In this document: one piece after another, positions 3 through 19,413 of the stretch
How the letters are laid out: each line of letters opens with the position of its first letter
Numbering within the stretch: the stretch's first letter is position 1
IMG/VR virus record: IMGVR_UViG_3300010883_005498
Span: 1 to 22,263 of that record
Length of the DNA stretch: 22,263 nt
Origin: a virus
Strand: one strand, 5' to 3'
Made by a program: the position numbers and the translations under genes
Notes under the pieces: model-generated
The model's database searches: none
The model's input: the letters and a program-made list of their open reading frames with translations, nothing else
Told to the model about the DNA's origin: nothing

Positions 3-368
3 GTGTTTGTTGATGTTATGTGGTTTCACCAAATGACCAAGGGAGACTATGATAACTGGCACAATCACTTCGGTTGTCAGTGGATAGGAATATACTTCGT
101 TGACCTACCTGAAGGTGAAGAAACCATACTAATGGATAGTGATGGTAATGAGTTTCAAGCAGATGTAAAAGAGGGGGAGTTATTGATATTCCCTTCTGGT
201 TTCTTACATAAATCGCCACCCAAGTTGTCAGATAATATAAAGACCATCATTGCATTCAACTTTAGTGTGGCATCCAAGTACAGTCAGGAGACGTTGAAGA
301 TGGTCAAAGAGACCCATCCATCAAACTATTTCGAAGATGTACGAATCGCAAAAGTATTTGAGGTATAA
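3..368 (+). CDS. 2OG-Fe(II) oxygenase-like protein, 5' end cut by window
   Basis: The frame is open from the window edge. The first start-type codon is a GTG at base 3 with no room for a ribosome binding site, so the gene almost certainly begins upstream. What remains is the C-terminal part of a jelly-roll 2-oxoglutarate/Fe(II) dioxygenase of the kind common in marine T4-like phages. Counting from the GTG, it shows an H20-N-H22 pair, then a GELLIFPSGFLH segment carrying the distal H69, then a basic residue (K80) followed by IAFNFS, the usual place for the 2-oxoglutarate-binding residue. The same pattern recurs in the complete protein at 11040-11543. Such proteins hydroxylate proteins, nucleotides or sugars; the substrate here is unknown. 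Fold assignment is fairly likely, activity is inferred. Confidence 0.6.
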   Translation: MFVDVMWFHQMTKGDYDNWHNHFGCQWIGIYFVDLPEGEETILMDSDGNEFQADVKEGELLIFPSGFLHKSPPKLSDNIKTIIAFNFSVASKYSQETLKMVKETHPSNYFEDVRIAKVFEV

Positions 369-371
369 ATA
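364..371 (+). promoter_or_regulatory. possible T4-type late promoter element TATAAATA
   Basis: The octamer TATAAATA matches the T4 late promoter consensus and lies just before the ATG at 377. It overlaps the stop codon of the oxygenase gene, and a start site at the usual distance would fall almost on the ATG, leaving no leader. It may therefore be a chance match. The better-placed copy is at 18090-18097. Confidence 0.3.
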
Positions 372-376
372 GAAGT

Positions 377-973
377 ATGGGATTATTAAAAACAGCAGCA
401 GACTTAGTATACACGATTCGGTTCTTGAAACTGTTGGTCACTCCGATTGAGAAGACCGATGCATTCAAGAAAGGTATCATTGATATCGATGGTAAGAAAC
501 GAAAGGAATTCAATACGAACAGTACTGATGACCGTGAAGCATATCGTTCGCATTACACACCATTTCACCGACTTGTATTTAACCTCAAAAAGATTATGGC
601 GAAAGCGCCAGGCGGTTCATCTGTTATCGCAAGGTATGGTGCTGCACTTGCACTCATAAAAGAACATGGTCAATTGACTGATTATCGCATTATGCAGATT
701 CACGAAGAGACGGGGATTGATATTCTTGACTGTCTTGCAGAGGATTCTCAGTGGTTCGTCATAGAAGATAAACAACTGTCGCCAGGAATTTACCGAATCA
801 AACATGATACCATGAACGCTATGTGTGAAGAAGTTGTTCACAAAGACGATAAAATACGAGTAGACGAAGACGCAATACCTGTTGATGAGATTCTGGGTAT
901 TGATATCTACAAAGGAATACACCTTGCGTCAAGGAGTTATGTGTATTTCACAACTGGGGAGATTACCCGATGA
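377..973 (+). CDS. conserved T4-like marine phage protein, function unknown
   Basis: This 198-aa soluble protein has no motif I can tie to an activity. Landmarks are a hydrophobic-basic N terminus (VYTIRFLKLLVTP), the segment FHRLVFNLKKIMAKAPGG followed by a helical IARYGAALALIKEHG, and an acidic C-terminal half. The pattern resembles a conserved hypothetical protein seen in marine T4-like genomes near structural or lysis genes, but I cannot name it. It starts 8 bases after the upstream stop and has only a weak ribosome binding site. Its TGA overlaps the ATG of the next small gene (ATGA), so the two are probably translationally coupled. Coding status is firm because of length, codon use and coupling on both sides. 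Confidence 0.8.
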   Translation: MGLLKTAADLVYTIRFLKLLVTPIEKTDAFKKGIIDIDGKKRKEFNTNSTDDREAYRSHYTPFHRLVFNLKKIMAKAPGGSSVIARYGAALALIKEHGQLTDYRIMQIHEETGIDILDCLAEDSQWFVIEDKQLSPGIYRIKHDTMNAMCEEVVHKDDKIRVDEDAIPVDEILGIDIYKGIHLASRSYVYFTTGEITR

Positions 974-3694: not shown

Positions 3695-4693
3695 ATGTCA
3701 TTATTAGAATTTAGTAAAACGTATAAACCTTTCCTCTACCCTTGGGCGGTGGAATTAACAAAGAAACATGAAGAGATTCATTGGACAGAAGATGAAGCGG
3801 AACTATCCGAAGACATTCAAGACTGGAGAATCAAACTTAATCCGCAGGAAAAAGAATTTATTACGCAAGTATTACGTCTGTTCACACAGTCGGACGTACA
3901 GGTTGGTGAGAACTACCACGAGTTGATGATTCCCAAGTTTAAGAACAACGAGATACGCAATATGTTATCCTCGTTCGCAAACCGTGAAGGTGTACACCAA
4001 CGTGCATACGCACTATTGAATGATACCCTTGGTCTACCAGACGAAGAACATTCTGCCTTTATGGAATACACAGAGATGGCAGATAAGATTGACTTCATGA
4101 AAGAGGGTGACATCAATACCCAAACAGGACTTGCACTGGTACTCGCACAGTCTGTATTCAATGAAGGTATGTCTCTGTTCGCATCATTTGTTATGCTGCT
4201 GAACTTCCAACGTTTCGGTAAGATGAAAGGTATGGGTACTATTGTTGAGTGGTCTATCCGTGATGAGACAATGCACGTCCAAGGCAATGCTAAGTTATAC
4301 CGTGAGTTCTGTAACGAACATCCACGTATTGTAAACGATGAGTTGAAGTCTAAAATCTATCAGATGGCACGTAATGCCGTTAAGTTAGAAGACCGATTCA
4401 TTACACTTGCATATAAGTCTGGTGATATCGAAGGTCTATCTGAGGCAGATGTTAAACAATACATCCGTCACATTGCAGACCGTAGATTACTACAACTAGG
4501 TATGAAACCTAAGTTTGGAGTAAAGGATAATCCACTACCTTGGTTAGACTGGGTATTGAATGGTGCATCACACGATAACTTCTTCGAGAAACGAGTTACC
4601 GAATATTCCGTTAATGGAATGGAAGGTGACTGGGGTTGGATAGAAGAACCAGAGAGTTGCGGATTAGATGGCAATGCAGTAAGTGTCGCCTAG
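3695..4693 (+). CDS. nrdB: ribonucleoside-diphosphate reductase small subunit
   Basis: Class Ia RNR beta subunit (332 aa), which holds the di-iron/tyrosyl radical cofactor and passes the radical to NrdA. The six iron ligands and the radical tyrosine are all present: D67, E98, H101, E157, E191 and H194, with Y105 at the position of E. coli Y122 (pattern ExxHxxxY). The C-terminal region LDWVLNGASHDNFFEKRVTEYS is typical of the family. It lies 3 bases after nrdA with GAGGG upstream, so the two form an operon under the promoter at 1601. The stop TAG overlaps the GTG of the next small gene. Nothing suggests loss of function. Confidence 0.96.
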   Translation: MSLLEFSKTYKPFLYPWAVELTKKHEEIHWTEDEAELSEDIQDWRIKLNPQEKEFITQVLRLFTQSDVQVGENYHELMIPKFKNNEIRNMLSSFANREGVHQRAYALLNDTLGLPDEEHSAFMEYTEMADKIDFMKEGDINTQTGLALVLAQSVFNEGMSLFASFVMLLNFQRFGKMKGMGTIVEWSIRDETMHVQGNAKLYREFCNEHPRIVNDELKSKIYQMARNAVKLEDRFITLAYKSGDIEGLSEADVKQYIRHIADRRLLQLGMKPKFGVKDNPLPWLDWVLNGASHDNFFEKRVTEYSVNGMEGDWGWIEEPESCGLDGNAVSVA

Positions 4694-4815
4694 TGGAAGA
4701 AGACAACGAAACATATCTTTTAGAATGTTCTCTTTGTGAAACGGATGTCGAAGTCCTAGTCAAAGACAGTGAGGAAGAACCACAATACTGTCCTATGTGT
4801 GGAGTAACGATATAA
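4693..4815 (+). CDS. 40-aa zinc-ribbon microprotein
   Basis: This short gene starts with GTG at 4693, sharing the final G of the nrdB stop codon (TAGTG), and is therefore probably read by coupling. It encodes an acidic peptide with two CxxC knuckles, C12-S-L-C and C33-P-M-C, about 20 residues apart, which is the layout of a minimal zinc ribbon. Very similar peptides of the form LECSLC...CPMCG are common in marine T4-like phages. Its role is unknown; the position after nrdB suggests co-expression with nucleotide metabolism, but a protein-binding or transcription-related role is equally possible. The paired cysteines and the exact overlap argue that it is real despite its length. Confidence 0.85.
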   Translation: MEEDNETYLLECSLCETDVEVLVKDSEEEPQYCPMCGVTI

Positions 4816-4834
4816 GAGACACATATATACCATT

Positions 4835-5239
4835 ATGTGGATATATGAAGATAAAGAGTTTCAACCAGAAGACGAGTTCTTGGAGCAATACCAAGGATTC
4901 GTCTACTGTCTAACCGAGACAAGTACTGGTAAAAAGTATATTGGTAAGAAGTTTTTCTGGAAACCCAAGATACTCCCTGTCACAAAAACAAGAAAGAGAC
5001 GCAAACGAACAAGAGTCCAATCCGATTGGCGGACGTACTATGGTTCGTCTGAAAAGGTAAAAACACTGTATGAAGGGGGTCAGGACTTCCGTAGAGACGT
5101 TCTACGACTCTGTCGTACAAAAGGTGAGTGTTCATACTACGAAGCGAAACTACAATTTGAATATGATGTTTTACTGAGTGATGAATACTATAATGAGTTT
5201 ATAGGTTGTAAGATACATGCAAAACATATTAAGTCGTGA
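4835..5239 (+). CDS. GIY-YIG-like nuclease domain protein
   Basis: This 134-aa protein has a GIY-YIG-type core: F22-V-Y24 stands for the first motif, Y35-I-G37 for the second about ten residues later, then K38/K39 and a basic stretch (about 44-61), and E103 in a helix at the position of the metal-binding glutamate. The segment SDWRTYYGSS and the C-terminal LSDEYYNEFI are typical of phage members of this group. No DNA-binding module such as an NUMOD repeat is attached, so it may be a free-standing DNA-processing or former homing enzyme. It begins 19 bases after the zinc-ribbon gene, and its end overlaps the next gene by 23 bases. The first motif departs from canonical GIY, so activity is uncertain. 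Confidence 0.65.
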   Translation: MWIYEDKEFQPEDEFLEQYQGFVYCLTETSTGKKYIGKKFFWKPKILPVTKTRKRRKRTRVQSDWRTYYGSSEKVKTLYEGGQDFRRDVLRLCRTKGECSYYEAKLQFEYDVLLSDEYYNEFIGCKIHAKHIKS

Positions 5240-6443
5240 TGCAATTTCCCGTGGTCGAGGATTCGTCTTCGATAATGTTGGAAAACCCGAAATATGCAGA
5301 GAAATAAATAAGATTAAAAACCTGTTGTTAGAGACAGGTGCAAGAAAAGGTGACATAGTAACTATCAATATTATGGTAGTTAATATACGTCACGTTGCTG
5401 CCATATTTGCGTGTGCAGAATTGGGACTGCCATTAATTATCCTCAACAGTCCTGCAACAAAAGAATCCCTACCATTTACTAAACTTGCACTCCATGGCCC
5501 AAGTGCCTGGCACATCTACGATTCTGAAAACCCTACCAATCTCGTTTATGATGGTCTTCATGATGAGATGATAAAACAATATGGTGGAATAGGTATTGAC
5601 GTACAGGATGCATACAATCCGCATGATATAATAGGTGACGATGTACTACCGAATGACATATTCCTAATAAGTTCTACCAGTGGAACAACCAAAGCGTCTA
5701 GACCTGTAAAGTTTTCACATAAAGAAACCATGAAGATTGCCAAACGAAATATAGAGGTGTTCTGGTTTGGACACGATGCAAAGGTTATCCATTCAAGAAA
5801 TCTACACCATGCATCCGCATTATTGACCCACCTACTACCCGCACTTATGAATGCATACACACATAGTTCTTTTGCACTAGGTCATGATGGGACACATGCA
5901 GAAGACTATAATTATCTAAAGGGTCTTAAAGATTTACATGATAATCCCCCATCTAATATAATGATGCCTAATAAGAAAGTTCTCTTTGATTTTCTAGAGA
6001 CGTTTGGAGGGCCGTTCATGAGAACCGTTAATATTAACATGTGTGGATTCCTATTGGACGCAGAGTTTGTTGACCTTGCAAGAGAATACAATGTTTGTTT
6101 TCAGTCACATTACGGTAGTATTGATACCGCAATCCCTCTTTTAATAAACCGTGTAGACAAAGACTCATTCCATATTCCTAATTCATTAGGAGTACTATGT
6201 GATGACTTTTACGAGACAACCCTTGAGGATGGACGTATGAAGGTGGAACACCCCTTGTGGGACGCACCAAGGTATATGGACGATGAGTTACAGGAATTTG
6301 ACGGACAATACATTCTAAAAAGTAATCGTCAAGTTGATATAGATATGACGGGGATTCTTGATTTGTCCCCATTCTCCCACGACACTAAAATTGATTACGA
6401 ACAATTACGAGGACATTTGCATGTTACTAGTAGCAGGGTGTAG
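5217..6443 (+). CDS. ANL-superfamily adenylate-forming enzyme lacking the C-terminal lid domain
   Basis: This 408-aa protein carries the signatures of acyl/aryl-CoA synthetases and NRPS adenylation domains. It has a phosphate-binding loop S153-T-S-G-T-T-K (core motif A3), an SHYGSIDTA segment near 297-305 (A5 region) and a D-rich stretch followed by GQYILKSNRQVDI near 363-375 (A7/A8 region). Typical enzymes run to 500 or more residues; here the C-terminal lid with the catalytic A10 lysine is missing, because the frame ends and the next gene begins. It may therefore adenylate a carboxylate and pass it on without forming a CoA ester, or use a partner. It overlaps the nuclease gene by 23 bases and the SGNH-like gene by 23 bases. 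The substrate cannot be deduced. Confidence 0.72.
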   Translation: MQNILSRDAISRGRGFVFDNVGKPEICREINKIKNLLLETGARKGDIVTINIMVVNIRHVAAIFACAELGLPLIILNSPATKESLPFTKLALHGPSAWHIYDSENPTNLVYDGLHDEMIKQYGGIGIDVQDAYNPHDIIGDDVLPNDIFLISSTSGTTKASRPVKFSHKETMKIAKRNIEVFWFGHDAKVIHSRNLHHASALLTHLLPALMNAYTHSSFALGHDGTHAEDYNYLKGLKDLHDNPPSNIMMPNKKVLFDFLETFGGPFMRTVNINMCGFLLDAEFVDLAREYNVCFQSHYGSIDTAIPLLINRVDKDSFHIPNSLGVLCDDFYETTLEDGRMKVEHPLWDAPRYMDDELQEFDGQYILKSNRQVDIDMTGILDLSPFSHDTKIDYEQLRGHLHVTSSRV

Positions 6444-7233
6444 TTTTGCTTGGGGAGACGAATTAGTCGGCTCTCGAAACAATCCACCGACTCACCAAGA
6501 CTTGGTGTTTGGTAGTATATTATCAAAGAAGTTAGACTTAGAATACACCAATATAGCTGCATGTGGTAATTGTAACTATAAGATATTTCGTGACGTTATG
6601 AGTAATCTCCATCTAAATCCTAGTCACATTTTTGTCTTGTGGTCTGACCCTCTAAGAAAAGAACAACTATTAGACGTACCGAACCATGATAGAAACAAAT
6701 TAAAGGTTGCTACAAGCTTGTCTATGACTCAATGGCACGAGAATCGATTCGATGACCTGTTACTCTCTATGAGTAGGGATGTTGCATATGAATGGTCAAG
6801 ACATTATACCTTTAATGAATTACCCTCGTTTGAAAAAAAGGAAACCGCAATCAGTGCCTATGGTACGGGTTTGTTAACTGGATTCACTCACCTAATACCC
6901 CAAATGATTGCATTGCAACATATGTGTGACGGTATGGGAATTAAGATTACACAAGGTATTTTTCATCAAGAAATTCGACAAGAAGTGTTCCGATATATTA
7001 AAAAAATAAGAATGTCACGGTTCAATTCCAGTAATCAACTCAAAGCTTGGACTAAGTGGGCAGAAGACTCATTAGACTCATTGAGACCAGAGTGTAAACT
7101 AGGGTTAGTTGAAGGTGATACATGTCTAAAGACTGTAATGGAAGGCAGACCTATGAAGAAATACGGTCATCCAGACGAACAAGCACACACAGACTACGCA
7201 GATTATCTCTATCCTATCGTAAAAAAACTTTAA
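6421..7233 (+). CDS. SGNH/GDSL-hydrolase-like protein
   Basis: I place the start at the ATG at 6421, which has GAGGA 7 bases upstream and gives a protein (270 aa) beginning MLLVAGCSFAWGDEL. Earlier in-frame ATGs lie inside the ANL gene and add unrelated sequence. The first residues match block I of SGNH hydrolases, with S8 as the nucleophile, and the C terminus has the GHPDEQAHTDYADYL pattern of block V around H250. The usual Asp three residues before that His is Lys (K247), so the catalytic triad looks incomplete or rearranged. Family members remove or transfer acyl groups on sugars and lipids. The tight overlap with the ANL enzyme suggests one pathway. Confidence 0.65.
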   Translation: MLLVAGCSFAWGDELVGSRNNPPTHQDLVFGSILSKKLDLEYTNIAACGNCNYKIFRDVMSNLHLNPSHIFVLWSDPLRKEQLLDVPNHDRNKLKVATSLSMTQWHENRFDDLLLSMSRDVAYEWSRHYTFNELPSFEKKETAISAYGTGLLTGFTHLIPQMIALQHMCDGMGIKITQGIFHQEIRQEVFRYIKKIRMSRFNSSNQLKAWTKWAEDSLDSLRPECKLGLVEGDTCLKTVMEGRPMKKYGHPDEQAHTDYADYLYPIVKKL

Positions 7234-7240
7234 ATAAAGC

Positions 7241-7269
7241 TTGACAAACCCTGCTCTTGTTGTTATAAT
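7241..7269 (+). promoter_or_regulatory. strong sigma70-type promoter, shared phage family (copy 1)
   Basis: TTGACA (7241-7246) and TATAAT (7264-7269) have a 17-base spacer. The flanks (G-C before, AACCC after the -35, TTGT before the -10, AA after) match the promoters at 7533 and 12367. It sits in the gap between the SGNH-like gene and the small gene at 7300, with a predicted start near 7276. Confidence 0.9.
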
Positions 7270-7299
7270 AAGTATATAAAATGAGAAAAGGGAAAGAAA

Positions 7300-7524
7300 A
7301 TGTTTAAAGAACTTCAAGAATTCGGTGACTATGTCAATAGTTTCTATGGTCAAGGTGGTATCTATGCCAAGTCTGACTACGCAACCGTCCAACAAATCGA
7401 GACTGCAATTATGACTTATATGTCAAGGTTGACTGATTTAGTCACTTGGGGTGGCGGTGACAGTCTGGACAGAGAAAGAGTTTCTGTCATTCTGACTGAC
7501 GAATTAAATGTTAAACTTTATTGA
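7300..7524 (+). CDS. small phage protein of unknown function (74 aa)
   Basis: This compact gene sits between two members of the same promoter family, with AGGGAAAG just upstream of its ATG. The product is acidic, soluble and probably helical (MFKELQEFGDYVNSFYGQGG at the start, a WGGGDSLDRE turn in the middle), with no cysteine, signal peptide or recognisable catalytic motif. Location behind a consensus host-type promoter and its size suggest an early host-takeover gene, which is inference. Having its own promoter immediately before and another immediately after implies that it can be made in a different amount from its neighbours. Confidence 0.75.
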   Translation: MFKELQEFGDYVNSFYGQGGIYAKSDYATVQQIETAIMTYMSRLTDLVTWGGGDSLDRERVSVILTDELNVKLY

Positions 7525-7532
7525 AAAAAGGC

Positions 7533-7561
7533 TTGACAAACCCTGTAAACCTTGTTATAAT
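7533..7561 (+). promoter_or_regulatory. strong sigma70-type promoter, shared phage family (copy 2)
   Basis: TTGACA (7533-7538) and TATAAT (7556-7561) are 17 bases apart in the gap after 7524. The spacer begins AACCCTGT and ends CTTGT, as in the other two copies. The predicted start is near 7568, giving a short leader with an AAAGGAAAG ribosome binding site before the ATG at 7593. Confidence 0.9.
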
Positions 7562-7592
7562 AATAACATAAACTAAAGAAAGGAAAGAAATT

Positions 7593-8012
7593 ATGGCGTA
7601 TGTATCTCAAGAAGACAAGAAAGAACTCTCTGTTGAAGTTAAGAAAGTCTGTAAAAAGTATGGATTTAAAGTGAGTTTAGGTGTCAGACATCATAGTACT
7701 CTCGTTGCGAAAGTGAAGGGTGCAAGACAAGTTTTAGAGGGATACTGTGCAGAACAGATGACCCCTAGAAAAGTAGAGAAGAGGGAGTTTTACGGTTATA
7801 AGTTCAACCCTGCGACTGTTCTAGAAGAGTCTGCAAAGTGGGGTCACGATGTGAACCTTCACTGGTTGGAAGAGAACTACTGTCCTACTGGAGTTAAGTT
7901 CTTACAAGAATTAAAGTCTGCGATGGAAGGAGAAAAATTCTTCTGTGAAGATGATTCAATGACCGACTACTTCCACAGAAGTCACTACGTTGACGTTAGA
8001 TTATTTGCATAA
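7593..8012 (+). CDS. LPD29-like phage protein
   Basis: This 139-aa protein begins MAYVSQEDKKELSVEVKKV with a basic VRHHSTLVAKVKG segment, followed later by NLHWLEENY and near the end by SMTDYFHRSHYVDVRLF. This order resembles the LPD29 domain (large polyvalent-protein associated domain 29), seen alone in many phages and inside large plasmid or phage proteins; its biochemical role is not known to me. An AAAGGAAAG ribosome binding site precedes the ATG and a consensus promoter lies just upstream, so it is probably highly expressed early. The next small gene follows after 9 bases. I am confident it is a gene; the family name is by pattern only. Confidence 0.8.
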   Translation: MAYVSQEDKKELSVEVKKVCKKYGFKVSLGVRHHSTLVAKVKGARQVLEGYCAEQMTPRKVEKREFYGYKFNPATVLEESAKWGHDVNLHWLEENYCPTGVKFLQELKSAMEGEKFFCEDDSMTDYFHRSHYVDVRLFA

Positions 8013-8021
8013 GGAAAAGAT

Positions 8022-8177
8022 ATGGGAATGTTAGAAGAATACTTTGAATTTTTGGATGACTTGAGAGAGTCTGGTGAAATCAACATGTTTGGTGCCGCAA
8101 AGGTACTACAAGAAACGTTTGGTTTGGTCAAGTATGAATCAAGAGACATCGTCTCTGCGTGGATGGAACAATTTTAA
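8022..8177 (+). CDS. 51-aa conserved small phage protein
   Basis: The ATG at 8022 follows the previous stop by 9 bases with AAGGAAAAG as ribosome binding site, and the frame closes at TAA 8175-8177. The product reads MGMLEEYFEFLDDLRESG, then INMFGAAKVLQETFGL and a C-terminal helix ending SAWMEQF. This arrangement (FLDxLRxSG...NMFGA...LQ..FGL) recurs in small proteins of marine phages. It is predicted to be an all-helical, acidic domain. No activity is known to me. A start two codons later (second Met) is possible but further from the ribosome binding site. Confidence 0.8.
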   Translation: MGMLEEYFEFLDDLRESGEINMFGAAKVLQETFGLVKYESRDIVSAWMEQF

Positions 8178-8183
8178 ATGAGT

Positions 8184-8199
8184 TATATATAATATTAAG
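8184..8199 (+). repeat. 16-bp leader repeat, copy 1
   Basis: TATATATAATATTAAG lies directly before the gene at 8212 and recurs without mismatch before the gene at 8432. It contains TATAAT (8188-8193) but has no good -35 box, and runs into an AAGGA ribosome binding site. It could be a promoter of another class or a shared translation-start leader. Confidence 0.7.
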
Positions 8200-8211
8200 G
8201 AAAACAATTTC

Positions 8212-8394
8212 ATGATTACACGAGAAGAAGTTGAACAGAAAGCAGTTGCAATCAAAGAAATGATTGCGGGTGCGGAAAAGCTACTTGTGGCTTCACAAGA
8301 AACTGGTAATGAAGAAGGTGTCGCTGCTGCGACATATCTAGTCGTTGAATATGAACAAATGTTGAAAGAATTTTGTTCATATTATAGCATCTAG
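8212..8394 (+). CDS. small helical acidic protein (60 aa), unknown
   Basis: The gene lies behind copy 1 of the 16-bp leader repeat with AAGGAAAA as ribosome binding site. The product is rich in Glu, Ala and Lys, looks like two helices joined at an ETGNEEG turn (about residues 30-36), and ends CSYYSI. There is no transmembrane segment or metal motif. Such small helical proteins in early phage blocks often bind host proteins, but nothing here shows a partner. Coding status rests on the ribosome binding site, a clean frame and fit in the gap. Confidence 0.7.
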   Translation: MITREEVEQKAVAIKEMIAGAEKLLVASQETGNEEGVAAATYLVVEYEQMLKEFCSYYSI

Positions 8395-9714: not shown

Positions 9715-10397
9715 CAATGAAGCGTCTCAAGATAGACCATTTACATACATACGATGCAATAACATCTAATCAACAAATTGCATACGAAGCATTCAAAGAC
9801 GGAGACCATCTGGTTCTCTGTGGTTCTGCGGGTACTGGTAAAACCTTTGTTGGTATGTACCTTGCACTACAGGATGTCCTTGATAAGTCGTATGACCAAG
9901 AGAAACTTGTCATTGTAAGAAGTGTTGTTCCTACCAGAGAGATGGGTTTTTTGCCTGGCAGTGTTGAAGAAAAGATTGCTACCTATGTTGCACCCTATAA
10001 ATCAATTGCAACCGAACTCTTTAATGAGAAGATGGCATATGAGAATCTAGAACAACAAGGAATTATTGAGTTTGTATCAACATCGTTTATACGTGGTACA
10101 ACTCTAGATAACTGTATAGTGTTGGTTGATGAGATGCAGAATCTCACCTTCCATGAACTAGACAGTATCATTACAAGGGTGGGTAAGAATAGTCGTATTA
10201 TCTTCTCTGGTGATTATTATCAGTCTGACCTGAAGTCCAGTTCAGATAAAAAAGGTATCCTTGACTTCATGAACATCATGGAAGTCATGAATCACTTTAC
10301 AACCGTGGAATTTGGATGGGCGGACATCGTTCGTTCGGACTTTGTCAGAGACTATATAATGACAAAAGAAATGGTTGAACGAGGAAACATTAAATGA
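9711..10397 (+). CDS. phoH: PhoH-like P-loop ATPase
   Basis: This 228-aa protein carries a Walker A motif (G38-SAGTGKT-45), an LVIVRSVVPTREMGFLPG stretch characteristic of PhoH, a Walker B motif (VLVDE, 137-141) followed by MQN, and a sensor-like IIFSGDYYQSD segment near 163-173. It is a complete stand-alone PhoH domain of the length usual in marine phages. PhoH proteins bind and hydrolyse ATP and have been linked to RNA metabolism; the link to phosphate starvation seen in bacteria is not established for phages. The ATG overlaps the preceding TGA by three bases (ATGA). A second Met (M3) at 9717 could be the true start, and neither has a strong ribosome binding site. Confidence 0.95.
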   Translation: MTMKRLKIDHLHTYDAITSNQQIAYEAFKDGDHLVLCGSAGTGKTFVGMYLALQDVLDKSYDQEKLVIVRSVVPTREMGFLPGSVEEKIATYVAPYKSIATELFNEKMAYENLEQQGIIEFVSTSFIRGTTLDNCIVLVDEMQNLTFHELDSIITRVGKNSRIIFSGDYYQSDLKSSSDKKGILDFMNIMEVMNHFTTVEFGWADIVRSDFVRDYIMTKEMVERGNIK

Positions 10398-10433
10398 TAG
10401 ATAATAACATCTGTCAAATTTAGGAGAAGTACC

Positions 10434-10577
10434 ATGTGGGCATTCATATTAATCGCTTTACTTATCGGCTCAGCTAGCAACAAACAACTAACAGAAAAAT
10501 GCGAAAAGGAAGTTAAAACCAATATCGCAGATAGTATGTACGAGTGTACAAATTACTATCGTACTAGGTTAAAGTAA
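10434..10577 (+). CDS. 47-aa membrane-anchored or secreted peptide next to the endolysin
   Basis: The ATG at 10434 has a good AGGAG site 7 bases upstream, and the frame ends at TAA 10575-10577, one base before the endolysin ATG. The N terminus MWAFILIALLIGSAS is a signal peptide or single membrane segment; after it comes a charged region with two cysteines (C24 and C39) that could form a disulfide outside the cytoplasm. Size, topology and position before a lysis enzyme make a lysis helper (antiholin, spanin-like or endolysin regulator) plausible, but there is no lipobox and no family match that I recognise. It could also be a superinfection-exclusion peptide. Confidence 0.7.
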   Translation: MWAFILIALLIGSASNKQLTEKCEKEVKTNIADSMYECTNYYRTRLK

Positions 10578-10578
10578 G

Positions 10579-11043
10579 ATGAAATTAAGTAAAAACTTCA
10601 CACTCAAAGAGTTCACAAAGTCTATGACTGCGACTCGATTGGGTATCGACAACACACCACAGGGCGAACATCTAGTAGCGGCACAAGAGTTATTCACTCA
10701 AGTCGTTCAACATGTTCGAGACCACTTCGGTATCACCCGTATCAATTCGGGTTACCGTTCTCCTGCACTGAACCAATCCGTGGGTGGTTCTTCAAACTCA
10801 CAACATTGTAAGGGTCAAGCAGTTGACTTGGAATGTGATAAGGCGGATAACCTTGTTGTTGCACAATGGATTAGGGACAACCTAGAGTTTGACCAAATCA
10901 TCTCAGAGTTCTATGTTGAAGGTGACCCCTCTTCGGGTTGGGTTCATGTGACATATGTGAGTCCTGAAGAGAACCGTAAGAAGTGTTTGACCGCATCACG
11001 AGTAAATGGTAAGACACATTATTCGGTTGGTCTGCCTGAGTGA
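10579..11043 (+). CDS. endolysin, M15 family peptidase
   Basis: This 154-aa protein is a peptidase M15 domain of the VanY/Ply type that cuts peptide cross-links in peptidoglycan. Zinc ligands are readable: H76 and D83 in SSNSQHCKGQAVDLE (the SxHxxGxAxD motif) and H123 in SGWVHVTY. The preceding INSGYRSPALN segment is the usual substrate-binding strand, and E110 (ISEFYVE) is placed for the catalytic base. There is no signal peptide, so release through a holin is expected; the 3-TM holin candidate lies far upstream at 1131-1592. It follows the small membrane peptide by one base, and its stop overlaps the GTG of the next gene. It may instead be a virion-borne lysin, but the domain is clear. Confidence 0.88.
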   Translation: MKLSKNFTLKEFTKSMTATRLGIDNTPQGEHLVAAQELFTQVVQHVRDHFGITRINSGYRSPALNQSVGGSSNSQHCKGQAVDLECDKADNLVVAQWIRDNLEFDQIISEFYVEGDPSSGWVHVTYVSPEENRKKCLTASRVNGKTHYSVGLPE

Positions 11044-11543
11044 AACATGTACAGGTGTTTGCAATAGACAATTTTGACAGTCTACAGAAAGAAGCACTAT
11101 TACAAATACCTGTAAGTAACGAACCTGTCTATGGGGACTATGATGTTCATGGAGACCCTACGAAATGGGACTTCGATTCTAAACCATATTCCGATGTTAC
11201 TAGACGAATAATTACCCCTGCAATCAGTAAGTATTGCAAATCGTGGGAATGTATTTCCTGTGCATTAAATACTCTGTGGTATCATGTATATAATAAAGGT
11301 GGCAGTTATATGTCACACACCCACACTCTAGCAAATATGACTGGGGTGATACACTTGTTATTAGAAGATGAAAGAGACTGTACTACTATAGTCGGTTATG
11401 ACGGAAAAATAAAAGAAGGTGAAGTTGTATTATTCCCATCGATGACACCACACAAATCAAATCCAGTTCATGGGAAGAAAATCATTATCGGTTTTAATTG
11501 GGACATGTATTCGGATATGAAAACAGGCGAGGAAGTACAGTGA
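11040..11543 (+). CDS. 2OG-Fe(II) oxygenase-like protein
   Basis: The GTG start at 11040 shares bases with the endolysin TGA (GTGA), giving a 167-aa protein. The N-terminal half is variable. The C-terminal half is a jelly-roll dioxygenase core: H93-T-H95 after SYMS, a TGVIHLLLED strand, GEVVLFPSMTPH with H138 as distal iron ligand, then K147 and IIIGFNWD, where the 2-oxoglutarate-binding residue is expected. The same features occur in the cut gene at the start of the window, so the phage carries at least two. These enzymes hydroxylate diverse substrates; next to glycosyltransferases a sugar or protein target is possible. Its TGA overlaps the GTG of the glycosyltransferase gene, implying coupled translation. 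Confidence 0.7.
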   Translation: MKHVQVFAIDNFDSLQKEALLQIPVSNEPVYGDYDVHGDPTKWDFDSKPYSDVTRRIITPAISKYCKSWECISCALNTLWYHVYNKGGSYMSHTHTLANMTGVIHLLLEDERDCTTIVGYDGKIKEGEVVLFPSMTPHKSNPVHGKKIIIGFNWDMYSDMKTGEEVQ

Positions 11544-15755: not shown

Positions 15756-16718
15756 ATGAAAATAGATAGAGCAGTAATTGAAATTAATGGTGGGTGTAAC
15801 TACTCATGTACTATGTGTCCACAGGATACACGTACTGGTGGAAGACATAAAGACTTTCTCAAGAAGATGGGACTAGAAGAGTTCGAGAAGAATGTTGCAG
15901 ATTGTGCTCAACACGGACTAAGAGTAGTCAACCTAGAAGGTAGTGGAGAACCCACACTAAATAGAAACCTACCTGAATACATTAAGATTGTTAAGAAGTA
16001 TGGTGCTAAGTGTTTCATGTTCTCTAATGGATTCCGTATGCACGGTAAGTTCATGGAAGATTGTGTTGATGCAGGATTAGACTTCTATCGATTCTCTTTT
16101 ATTGGATATAGTCCTGAGAAGTATGATGAGTGGATGAACAATATCATTGGCGGAAACTTTAATCATATTGTAAAAAACATACGTGAAATGAAAGCATACG
16201 TTGATAAGACTGGTTCGGATTGTTCTGTTGCAACCTATCATCTCATTACTGATAATGACAATTTAGACTTTGAACTAGATGCATATAAGAAACTAGTAAA
16301 TGACCTTGGTGTTAAGACTGAGATATGGAAGATGCATAACTGGTCTGGTGTCTATGACCCTAAACAAAATACACGTACTGGTGAAGAGAAAACATGTGGT
16401 AGACCGTTTAGTCCTGACGTTGTTATACGTGCAGGAGGCAGTGACGGTAAGAGAGGTGGTGTCGCACCTTGTTGTCAAGTACTAGGACAAGATGAGAAAG
16501 CAGTCCTTGGTCATACAAGTGAGAATACCATTGAAGAGATATGGAACGGGCCAGAGTATACCAAACTACGTGAAGACCACACCAATAAAACATATCCTGA
16601 CTATTGTAAGACATGCGACTTCCTATTAGATGACCCTGAAGTCTTGGTCTATACCAATCACGAACGTGACTTGATGAAGATGCATGGAACTGAGTTTGAC
16701 TTAAATGATTTCAGATAA
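15756..16718 (+). CDS. radical SAM enzyme with SPASM-type C-terminal cluster domain
   Basis: The 320-aa protein has the radical SAM motif C14-N-Y-S-C18-T-M-C21 that binds the 4Fe-4S cluster, with GSGEPTLN (about 62-69) as the SAM-binding GGE-type strand. The C-terminal part has C214 (TCGRPF), C239-C240 (APCCQVLG), an EEIWNGPEY segment and C284-K-T-C287. This is the SPASM/twitch layout with an extra iron-sulfur site. Relatives modify ribosomally made peptides, alcohols or sugars by radical chemistry. No precursor peptide is evident beside it, so a sugar or glycan target within the cluster is likelier than a peptide. A weak AGGT site precedes the ATG. It overlaps the next gene by 14 bases. Confidence 0.9.
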   Translation: MKIDRAVIEINGGCNYSCTMCPQDTRTGGRHKDFLKKMGLEEFEKNVADCAQHGLRVVNLEGSGEPTLNRNLPEYIKIVKKYGAKCFMFSNGFRMHGKFMEDCVDAGLDFYRFSFIGYSPEKYDEWMNNIIGGNFNHIVKNIREMKAYVDKTGSDCSVATYHLITDNDNLDFELDAYKKLVNDLGVKTEIWKMHNWSGVYDPKQNTRTGEEKTCGRPFSPDVVIRAGGSDGKRGGVAPCCQVLGQDEKAVLGHTSENTIEEIWNGPEYTKLREDHTNKTYPDYCKTCDFLLDDPEVLVYTNHERDLMKMHGTEFDLNDFR

Positions 16719-17310
16719 TGTATGGATGATACAGATACCTGATAATAGGGTATCACAACATTACGCAAGTTTGTGTATCCCAACATGGGACTGTAAAGTA
16801 AATCTATTTGATGCATTCACCCCCACTGCAATGCCAGACTATTTAGATTTTGGTACATTCTGGGGGTCAAGAGAATTTAGTCCTAGTGAAAAAGCAGGGT
16901 TCTATAGTCACCTAGAGTTATGGAAACGGTGTTATACAGAAGACAAACCCATATCAATCATAGAACATGATGTTGCACTACGTAAGTGGCCATTAAAAGA
17001 TATGCCAATCATTGATGACTTCTTTGCGTTTGCAGACTTTATTGATGAGGATGATTGGAAAAACTATTCTACCCGATTCGAAGGACATCCATACTGGGGA
17101 ACAGATGAACCATTATGTCCTGTCACCCATGCATACTATATGACACCTGATATTGCAGAGACTCTACATTCGACTTTATCCAATATGACACTCACCAAGT
17201 TTGTGGATGATTACATGTGGGAGTTTATGGGTAAAGATAAGAATAAAATAGTTAATTACGCCCGTCCTATATACACAGACTGTATTGGAGGAACAATGGT
17301 TCATGCGTAG
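16705..17310 (+). CDS. glycosyltransferase family 25-like protein
   Basis: This 201-aa protein has the central pattern of LPS beta-galactosyltransferase-like (GT25) enzymes: FSPSEKAGFYSHLELWKRC (about 57-75), corresponding to the G-x-x-x-SH-x-x-LW helix, then KPISIIEHDVAL, where the usual ILEDD acidic pair is replaced by E-H-D. Later a WGTDEPLCPVTHAYYMTP strand is typical of the acceptor side. The ATG at 16705 overlaps the radical SAM gene by 14 bases; an internal Met (M8, 16726) is an alternative, and neither has a strong ribosome binding site. Its TAG is overlapped by the next gene (ATGCGTAG). Donor sugar unknown. Confidence 0.72.
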   Translation: MISDNVWMIQIPDNRVSQHYASLCIPTWDCKVNLFDAFTPTAMPDYLDFGTFWGSREFSPSEKAGFYSHLELWKRCYTEDKPISIIEHDVALRKWPLKDMPIIDDFFAFADFIDEDDWKNYSTRFEGHPYWGTDEPLCPVTHAYYMTPDIAETLHSTLSNMTLTKFVDDYMWEFMGKDKNKIVNYARPIYTDCIGGTMVHA

Positions 17311-18094
17311 ATTAATATTTCAAGTATCGGTAGGTAAACCTTCCAAACTATATGAACATTGTATTGATTCAGTCGCAAAGTATTGTGCGAAATATGATAT
17401 CGAACACATTGTATTAACTCAACCCAAACTAAGAATCAAACCTGATATCTTTACCAGTGGACGTAGTGAAGCGTCCTATATGAAATATGGTGGATATCTT
17501 CCTATCTTTGAAAAGGAGAATGCATTTGACTATATTGATAGATTTGAACAAATTGCGATTGTGGATGCCGATATATACATCCGACATGATGCAACAAATA
17601 TATTTGATGACTTTGGTACTGACCACGCATTTGGTGCTGTAGTAGAACGTGAAATGGACATTCAAGATTGGTATGGTGGTAAGATTAAAAACTACTCCGC
17701 TATGCAGTATAGACACCTACATAGTGCGGGTCAAGGTGATTTCAAACCAACCAAATTAGGTTATGAGTTCTTTAACATGGGAATGATTCTCTTGAACTCC
17801 AAACTATTCAAACCATACCTCAAGGGACAAGACCCTCACAGTTTCCTAAACCGTATGGAATTTAAGGACTTTGTAGACGGAGTCGGTGCATACAAGTGGA
17901 GTACTGACCAAACGTTACTAAACTATTTCCTGAAGAAGTATAACATACCTACCAAACATATGGAAGGTAAATGGAATGGACTATTTGGTGCAATCAATAA
18001 TGTAAAAGATTGTAACTTTGTACATTTCTTTCTAAAGGATAAACTCCCCGATGGTGGAGAAAATGTTACCCAGTTGATGAATCAAATTGTATAA
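17303..18094 (+). CDS. glycosyltransferase, GT-A fold (GT8-like), second copy
   Basis: The start is set at the ATG at 17303, with GGAGGA 10 bases upstream; the earlier ATG at 17285 would add a stretch belonging to the GT25-like frame. The 263-aa product starts MRRLIFQVSVG, like the MNLIFQYMIT start of the protein at 11540, and shares its motif order: D88-A-D90 (AIVDADIY), FFNMGMILLN, STDQTLLNYFLKKY and a C-terminal FVHFFLKDK with the metal/phosphate histidine. The two are probably distant paralogues acting at different steps. It ends in a 53-base gap with a late promoter element, so it may close the transcription unit that begins at 12367. Confidence 0.8.
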   Translation: MRRLIFQVSVGKPSKLYEHCIDSVAKYCAKYDIEHIVLTQPKLRIKPDIFTSGRSEASYMKYGGYLPIFEKENAFDYIDRFEQIAIVDADIYIRHDATNIFDDFGTDHAFGAVVEREMDIQDWYGGKIKNYSAMQYRHLHSAGQGDFKPTKLGYEFFNMGMILLNSKLFKPYLKGQDPHSFLNRMEFKDFVDGVGAYKWSTDQTLLNYFLKKYNIPTKHMEGKWNGLFGAINNVKDCNFVHFFLKDKLPDGGENVTQLMNQIV

Positions 18095-18846: not shown

Positions 18847-19413
18847 ATGAAAATAGGACTCACTCAAAGAGTCCTCACGCACAATAAACAAGTTCATGAT
18901 TCTTTAGACCATAACTGGTATAGGTTACTAAAGGGTCATGAACTCGTTCCAATCCCAAATCGTGATGACTTAGATTATGAATCTCTTGCAGAATCTCTAG
19001 ACCTCCTCATTATCACAGGTGGAGGAAACGAGCGTATCCGTATCACCACCGAAGTATCCCTTGCAACAGAAATGTCTGAGTTGGGTAAACCTATACTTGG
19101 TATATGTCATGGTGCATTTTTACTTACGGAAATACTTGGTGGTAAAACAAGGACGGGTAAAGAGAACCACACAGATGTTGACCATCTAGTGTATAAAAGT
19201 GATTCGTGCCATACTGTTTCGTGCCATACTGTGAACAGTTATCACAATATTTGTATTGACAAAGTACCACCAAATAGTGTATCATTGTGTATAGACGATG
19301 ATGGTGATTGCGAGTCTTGGATAAAGGATAATGTTTGTGCAATCGTGTGGCATCCTGAGAGGATGACCATACCCTATATACCTACAGAGATAAAAGAGAT
19401 TATAAGATTATGA
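18847..19413 (+). CDS. class I glutamine-amidotransferase-like hydrolase, gamma-glutamyl-CDP-amidate hydrolase type
   Basis: This 188-aa protein has the class I GATase/peptidase C26 triad: nucleophile C87 in LGICHGAF, then H169 and E171 in VWHPER. The start MKIGLTQRVL with HDSLDHNWYRLL and the later VNSYHN segment resemble the Campylobacter Cj1417-type hydrolases, which release the amide from gamma-glutamyl-CDP-amidate in O-methyl phosphoramidate synthesis. The kinase and cytidylyltransferase partners are not in this window. A PuuD-like gamma-glutamyl hydrolase is the main alternative. Residues 120-129 are a doubled SCHTV just before VNSYHN. It begins right after the di-iron gene stop, and its TGA overlaps the cupin ATG. 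Confidence 0.8.
   Translation: MKIGLTQRVLTHNKQVHDSLDHNWYRLLKGHELVPIPNRDDLDYESLAESLDLLIITGGGNERIRITTEVSLATEMSELGKPILGICHGAFLLTEILGGKTRTGKENHTDVDHLVYKSDSCHTVSCHTVNSYHNICIDKVPPNSVSLCIDDDGDCESWIKDNVCAIVWHPERMTIPYIPTEIKEIIRL
19203..19232 (+). repeat. 15-bp perfect tandem duplication inside the hydrolase gene
   Basis: TTCGTGCCATACTGT occurs twice in direct succession (19203-19217, 19218-19232). It is in frame and adds a second SCHTV pentapeptide to the protein. Perfect identity suggests a recent slippage or duplication event. Confidence 0.95.

Follow-up and report, generated by a model that had tools for sequence, protein, structure and literature searches.

How could an adenylate-forming enzyme work without the bulk of its C-terminal lid, and is the protein encoded by the gene overlapping its end a partner in the reaction? 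These questions are raised by a locus in the virus record IMGVR_UViG_3300010883_005498, whose entire 22,263 bases are referred to here as the window. A preliminary description had placed at this locus an adenylation domain of the ANL superfamily (408 aa, 5217–6443) followed by an SGNH-type protein (270 aa, from the ATG at 6421 to the stop at 7233), and proposed that the two form a pathway. These open reading frames (ORFs) and their coordinates are real, as are the two 23-base overlaps, between the ANL gene and the nuclease gene upstream of it (5217–5239) and between the ANL and SGNH genes (6421–6443); all window features of these three genes given below lie on the + strand. The carriers form a group of uncultured marine bacteriophages. 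In the textbook view of ANL enzymes a rotating lid carries the A10 lysine for the first step and builds the coenzyme A (CoA)/pantetheine tunnel for the second. The present analysis indicates that the window ANL has lost the body of this lid but retained the catalytic tail, and that the near-constant partner of the enzyme is a degenerate paralogue, ANL2, and not the SGNH protein.

The ANL domain and its C-terminal tail

The Pfam AMP-binding profile PF00501 matches the window ANL at E 4.5e-7, with a score of 29.4 bits that is slightly under the curated cut-off of 29.9. An AlphaFold2 (AF2) model built on a 19-sequence alignment (mean predicted local distance difference test, pLDDT, 69.1) returned a Foldseek top list consisting entirely of ANL structures (E 5.9e-15), and its best VIA match was FACL13 (5zrn; Z 27.6, root-mean-square deviation, rmsd, 3.2 with 345 residues aligned), the nearest structures including both fatty-acyl and aryl CoA ligases. 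By its motifs and its predicted fold, which is unambiguous, the protein belongs to the ANL superfamily, as had been proposed.

Conservation was assessed in 19 relatives with 55–85% identity to the window ANL. The A3 motif or P-loop (residues 152–168, SSTSGTTKASRPVKFSH, 5670–5720) contains S152-T154-S155-G156-T157-T158 and S167-H168, invariant in 19 of 19, and the A5 motif (residues 298–304, HYGSIDT, 6108–6128) contains invariant H298, G300, I302, D303 and T304; a profile alignment pairs this A5 segment with NHYGPSET of gramicidin S synthase 2. All 19 relatives share the TSGTT P-loop, the (Y/F)G(S/T)ID pattern at A5 and the A7 aspartate D356, and residues flanking these motifs vary little or not at all, so that the ATP-binding site, whose failure would have spoken against the preliminary description, retains its conserved motifs. 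Ratios of nonsynonymous to synonymous substitution (dN/dS) of ~0.32 against L004 and ~0.19 against L012 indicate that the gene is under purifying selection.

The same description had the domain end short of the catalytic A10 lysine, and here the evidence points the other way. The protein ends in ...PFSHDTKIDYEQLRGHLHVTSSRV, within which residues 385–398 (PFSHDTKIDYEQLR, 6369–6410; P385, K391, L397 and R398 invariant in 19 of 19) conform to the A10 consensus in the literature, Px4GK(hydrophobic)x(R/K) or, in longer form, ...GKI(L/D)(R/K)(R/K)ELR (PMC8388817), except for Thr in place of Gly and Tyr in place of Arg/Lys. When the protein is aligned by MAFFT, without constraints, to E. coli EntE and MenE and to five full-length phage ANLs, the candidate catalytic lysine K391 (6387–6389) falls in their A10 lysine column, with the window's PFSHDTKIDYEQLR matched in that column to EntE PLTAVGKVDKKQLR. 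When Thr is allowed for Gly, the spaced motif is found in 19 of 19 relatives and in four of five E. coli ANLs serving as positive controls, compared with 2.5e-5 of shuffled tails and, in a looser form, one of 432 other phage ORFs; the pattern was fixed after the sequence had been seen, making these rates indicative. The spaced motif in all relatives and the column shared with EntE and MenE led to rejection of a missing A10 lysine.

What has changed is the spacing. From the A8 arginine to the A10 lysine there are 20 residues in the window ANL versus 86–94 in EntE, MenE and Acs, a shortening common to all ANL relatives aligned. Together with the position of K391 in the A10 column, this argues that a lid body of ~70 residues has been deleted and the catalytic A10 tail kept, leaving the protein without the complete rotating C-terminal lid of two-domain acyl-CoA ligases. 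A truncation arising from sequencing error or local gene decay was rejected, as the layout of the C-terminus is identical in 19 of 19 relatives. Comparison with E. coli ANLs by hhalign matched the N-terminal half and left the tail unplaced, because its global path opens no 70-residue gap. Several untrimmed VIA alignments extend into the lid at the C-terminus of full-length enzymes (1md9, 23..524; 6ijb, 8..526, an entry whose title names 'K523A').

ANL2, the desaturase-like gene and the SGNH-fold protein

ANL2 is an ANL paralogue of 305–330 aa whose P-loop has been lost and whose sequence terminates immediately short of A5, and degenerate ANL paralogues in the same phages are without the A10 lysine. 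It is encoded in nine of nine long ANL records against one of 12 SGNH-only records, and a desaturase-like gene in seven of nine against none of 12, counts that are not independent, the ANL records being mostly fragments of related phages; the single SGNH-only exception (G020) carries a distant 480-aa ANL-like protein. ANL2 may lie behind the SGNH gene, behind the ANL gene or in front of it. In the window's close relatives (L127, L128 and L129) it lies ~8.5 kb upstream and overlaps the fatty-acid-desaturase-like gene (in L127, desaturase-like 6403–7143 and ANL2 7130–8110, overlapping by 14 bases; the desaturase-like gene also at L128:5697–6437 and L129:6541–7281, with ANL2 of L129 at 7268–8269). 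The window cannot show ANL2 because its DNA begins 5.2 kb upstream of the ANL gene; beyond that edge the window's phage presumably encodes it. In all three relatives the desaturase-like protein has the three histidine boxes of such enzymes (HX4H, HXXHH and HXXHH, here HRAIAH, HRQHH and HLKHH), and it matches the acyl-CoA desaturases 4zyo and 4ymk in the PDB at E 0.004; it had no Pfam match and was also missed by PHROGs. Elsewhere ANL2 is fused to a class I methyltransferase (L022:2736–4247), followed by a PhyH-type 2-oxoglutarate-Fe(II) oxygenase (4241–4807), ANL and SGNH. A further phage type, L169, encodes a lid-less ANL that continues beyond A10 by an extra C-terminal stretch (9989–11326) and, on the opposite strand at a distance of ~5 kb, an ANL-like protein that is degenerate but full-length (16323–17741, − strand).

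By sequence, the protein encoded behind the ANL gene has no Pfam match and no meaningful match in the PDB. Its AF2 model (mean pLDDT 81.7) best matches TesA (4jgg; Z 13.0, rmsd 2.6, 157 residues), giving it a predicted SGNH (flavodoxin-like) fold. The block I serine (S8, 6442–6444), block II glycine (G49) and block V histidine (H250, 7168–7170) were assigned by motif comparison with TesA rather than from coordinates, and G6, C7, S8, F9, G49, N52 and H250 are invariant in 25–26 relatives. Block III reads WS(D/A) instead of GxND, its asparagine being absent family-wide, and the block V aspartate position (H250-3) is occupied by Lys in the window and by E, K, P or R in nearly all relatives, so that an SGNH-type protein with a replaced block V aspartate had been described correctly. 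Because both residues are absent, the protein may use a Ser-His dyad or some other chemistry; W74-S75, R79, E81, Q178 and H182 are invariant in the family. The aspartate is kept in one of 26 aligned proteins, the SGNH copy of L090. Phages without ANL, L090 included, also carry tandem SGNH-family genes that overlap or abut (L090:5214–6768, L098, L101–L103, L105, L122, L123).

Between two near-identical phages, compared at L007:5100–6400 and L019:4750–6020, the ANL gene alone has been replaced. Their neighbourhoods are otherwise 97–100% identical, but the ANL gene shows only ~66–86% nucleotide identity; synonymous divergence (dS) is 0.016 for SGNH and 1.32 for ANL, and the replacement is bounded by the two overlaps. 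In nonribosomal peptide synthetases the adenylation core is a recombination hot spot that changes the substrate (PMC8097286), and by analogy such an allele swap may change the ANL substrate in these phages.

Rival readings and a proposed mechanism

An SGNH gene lies directly behind ANL in 29 of 46 viral ANL contigs, many of them near-duplicates, and does not in 12, while five end too early; the 23-base overlap recurs in, for example, L012 (4788–6023/6001), L022 (4800–6023/6001) and L071 (4797–6023/6001). SGNH is absent from whole records of 48.9 kb (G003) and 92.7 kb (G005), as well as from nine other records of lineages without an adjacent SGNH, one of which (G030, locus L037) ends soon after ANL, and the ANL tree requires at least two to three gains or losses of the pairing. 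Members of the SGNH family itself were found in 191 viral stretches, most of which have no ANL. Among isolated phages searched there was no ANL match and a single SGNH match, in Phage C48C1, which has neither ANL2 nor desaturase; its SGNH gene adjoins a NifU-like gene, and in this phage and others the gene belongs to the dnaB/NifU region. The pair thus occurs beyond chance and frequently, and in view of the 12 contigs without SGNH and of SGNH in many ANL-less phages it is not obligate. The expected linkage in other phages holds, in the same register, in most contigs, but strong pairing fails in several lineages.

These data bear on two readings of the pair. A dedicated two-enzyme pathway, in which ANL would make the adenylate and SGNH attach or remove the group without CoA, had been the original proposal; it is compatible with the shared overlapping register, with an SGNH fold whose Ser and His are those found in hydrolases and acyltransferases, and with another type of phage (L082/L142) that has a distant ANL-like gene (480 aa) close to an SGNH gene. 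It is nevertheless doubtful and not supported, given the contigs and long records without SGNH, the changes demanded by the tree, and the comparison of the window with L006, where 77% identity for ANL and 45% for SGNH mean that the two do not co-diverge. That the pair is instead independent cargo, co-located in a hot spot that follows nrdAB and the nuclease gene, with SGNH having a function of its own, is a serious possibility, if short of even. The many SGNH genes without ANL and their dnaB/NifU setting favour it, as does the variable gene order behind the nuclease (ANL-SGNH, ANL-SGNH-ANL2, ANL-ANL2, ANL alone, or ANL2-oxygenase-ANL-SGNH), but an adjacent SGNH is almost invariably the gene immediately after ANL, with the 23-base overlap, long ANL records hold no second SGNH copy elsewhere, and ANL-linked SGNH proteins are 43–92% identical to that of the window as opposed to mostly 30–37% for the others.

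Two further readings concern the ANL protein itself. Loss of the lid body and the clearly degenerate state of its companion ANL2 would fit a pseudo-enzyme that binds ATP/AMP or the acid as a sensor or inhibitor, non-catalytically, yet this is quite unlikely: the P-loop, A5, A7 aspartate and A10 lysine are kept in every relative, whereas the degenerate paralogues have lost the P-loop and the A10 lysine, and the gene is under purifying selection. Least probable is an ordinary, merely shortened acyl-CoA or acyl-carrier-protein ligase acting on host CoA or acyl carrier protein, a reading in keeping with the fatty-acyl and aryl CoA ligases among the nearest structures and with the desaturase-like gene overlapping ANL2 in close relatives, and opposed by the missing body of the lid domain. 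The same absence makes ordinary CoA thioesterification unlikely and agrees with the earlier suggestion of a reaction without CoA.

Slightly better than even weight is given to the reading that the viral mini-ANL forms an acyl-adenylate and hands it over without normal lid rotation. ATP and a carboxylic acid would be bound in the N-terminal domain, as its fold and motifs suggest; the short tail with A10 would bring Lys391 to the active site, where it would drive formation of an acyl- or aminoacyl-AMP and release of pyrophosphate. Because the thioester step of ANLs needs lid rotation (PMC8388817) and the ~70-residue lid body is absent, the adenylate probably goes directly to an amine, a hydroxyl or a partner protein rather than to CoA. 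ANL2, judging by its co-occurrence, probably acts in complex with ANL as a non-catalytic subunit or substrate binder, and the SGNH-fold protein may serve as an accessory enzyme, an acyl-transferase or esterase, that takes up the product in most lineages though not in all. The module would belong to the exchangeable cargo genes of T4-like marine phages, its likeliest purpose being to modify a glycan, a lipid or some component of the virion; the association with the desaturase suggests a fatty-acyl group, although the analysis pointed to no substrate, beta-alanine included.

Several observations weigh against direct hand-over by an active mini-ANL. The A5 glutamate is replaced by Asp, and in A10 the family has Thr for Gly and Tyr, Phe, His or Met for Arg. 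Residues 371–408 of the tail have pLDDT below 50 in the AF2 model, and since the tail is so poorly modelled we infer the position of K391 at the active site from the motif. No acceptor was identified: a phage-encoded acyl carrier protein was rejected for this role, PF00550 being found in none of 10 records. A more elaborate version, in which the collapsed-lid ANL and ANL2 form an obligate complex in a heteromeric virus-specific system that bypasses CoA, passes on an acyl group, possibly desaturase-shaped, via an SGNH-fold transferase, and swaps the ANL allele between close phages to change substrate, is unlikely.

Genomic setting and comparison with known systems

Upstream of ANL, at every locus examined in detail, lies a nuclease gene, in the window a SegE-type GIY-YIG nuclease of 134 aa (4835–5239; PF19835, E 3.2e-33). 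Its overlap with ANL has the same register in most relatives examined, and the ANL/SGNH overlap, shared by other SGNH-adjacent loci, likely couples translation of the two genes. The nuclease was rejected as a part of the system because a gene with the same PHROG label lies behind nrdAB in Phage C48C1 without ANL, and it is treated as phage backbone. PHROG 447 (phrog_447) names the window nuclease 'NAD synthetase', a name also borne by the C48C1 gene and probably a propagated misannotation. Farther along, window positions 18847–19413 encode a glutamine amidotransferase of class I. NCBIfam matches it best to gamma-glutamyl-CDP-amidate hydrolase (E 6.5e-15, well short of the cut-off); it adjoins a cupin in a cluster that includes a NodU-like carbamoyltransferase, a GT25 and a radical SAM/SPASM protein.

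A limited search of the open-access literature returned no paper on lid-less ANLs, a collapsed-lid architecture, the ANL/ANL2 association or a phage ANL-SGNH pair, which does not establish their absence, and two genome scans with ANL alignments gave no relatives in cellular genomes, a weak negative as such scans rely on short exact patterns. The annotation of phage proteins as AMP-dependent ligases is not new: BFVD has such proteins from uncultured Caudovirales phages, among them the best viral structural match, A0A6J5L571, a 442-aa AMP-dependent synthetase/ligase (E 6.1e-21, 22% identity). A natural family with the A10 lysine but without the lid body would separate the two roles of the lid and offer a test of the minimal lid for adenylation. 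A further implication is a system for acyl or aminoacyl activation in marine phages, with a pseudo-enzyme as its partner and a specificity gene that can be exchanged.

With TesA (thioesterase I/lysophospholipase L1) the window SGNH protein shares the fold, the block I Ser, the block II Gly/Asn and the block V His; it lacks Asp in block V and Asn in block III, having the conserved W74-S75, R79, E81, Q178 and H182 instead, and is ~90 residues longer. For direct acyl-AMP transfer the working analogy is with the acyl-protein synthetase LuxE and the amide ligase McbA, which pass acyl-AMP to a protein or an amine and do not keep it as a CoA thioester; McbA has a full lid, unlike the window ANL. A LuxE-like self-acylated cysteine was considered, but with C66 as the sole invariant cysteine in the 19 relatives no strong candidate emerged.

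Closer homologs are the full-length phage ANLs of ~500 aa (L178–L183), with the P-loop CTSSGTTGTPK and, in the same alignment column, the A10 motif TGIK(L/M/I)DNQL(L/I)R; they keep the complete lid and have no SGNH or ANL2 neighbour in the loci fetched. A small membrane-like ORF of 84–89 aa follows the full-length gene in L178 (6332–7846), L179, L180, L182 and L183. In common with the ANL superfamily at large (class I adenylate-forming enzymes, PF00501, such as EntE, DhbE, MenE and FadD13/FACL13), the window ANL has the N-terminal fold, the P-loop, A5, the A7 Asp and an A10 lysine motif near the C-terminus. It differs from them in the absence of the ~70-residue lid body and in the substitutions of Asp for Glu in A5 and Thr for Gly in A10, and was found here only in phages; it is an ANL by fold and motifs that stands outside the definition of a two-domain acyl-CoA ligase.
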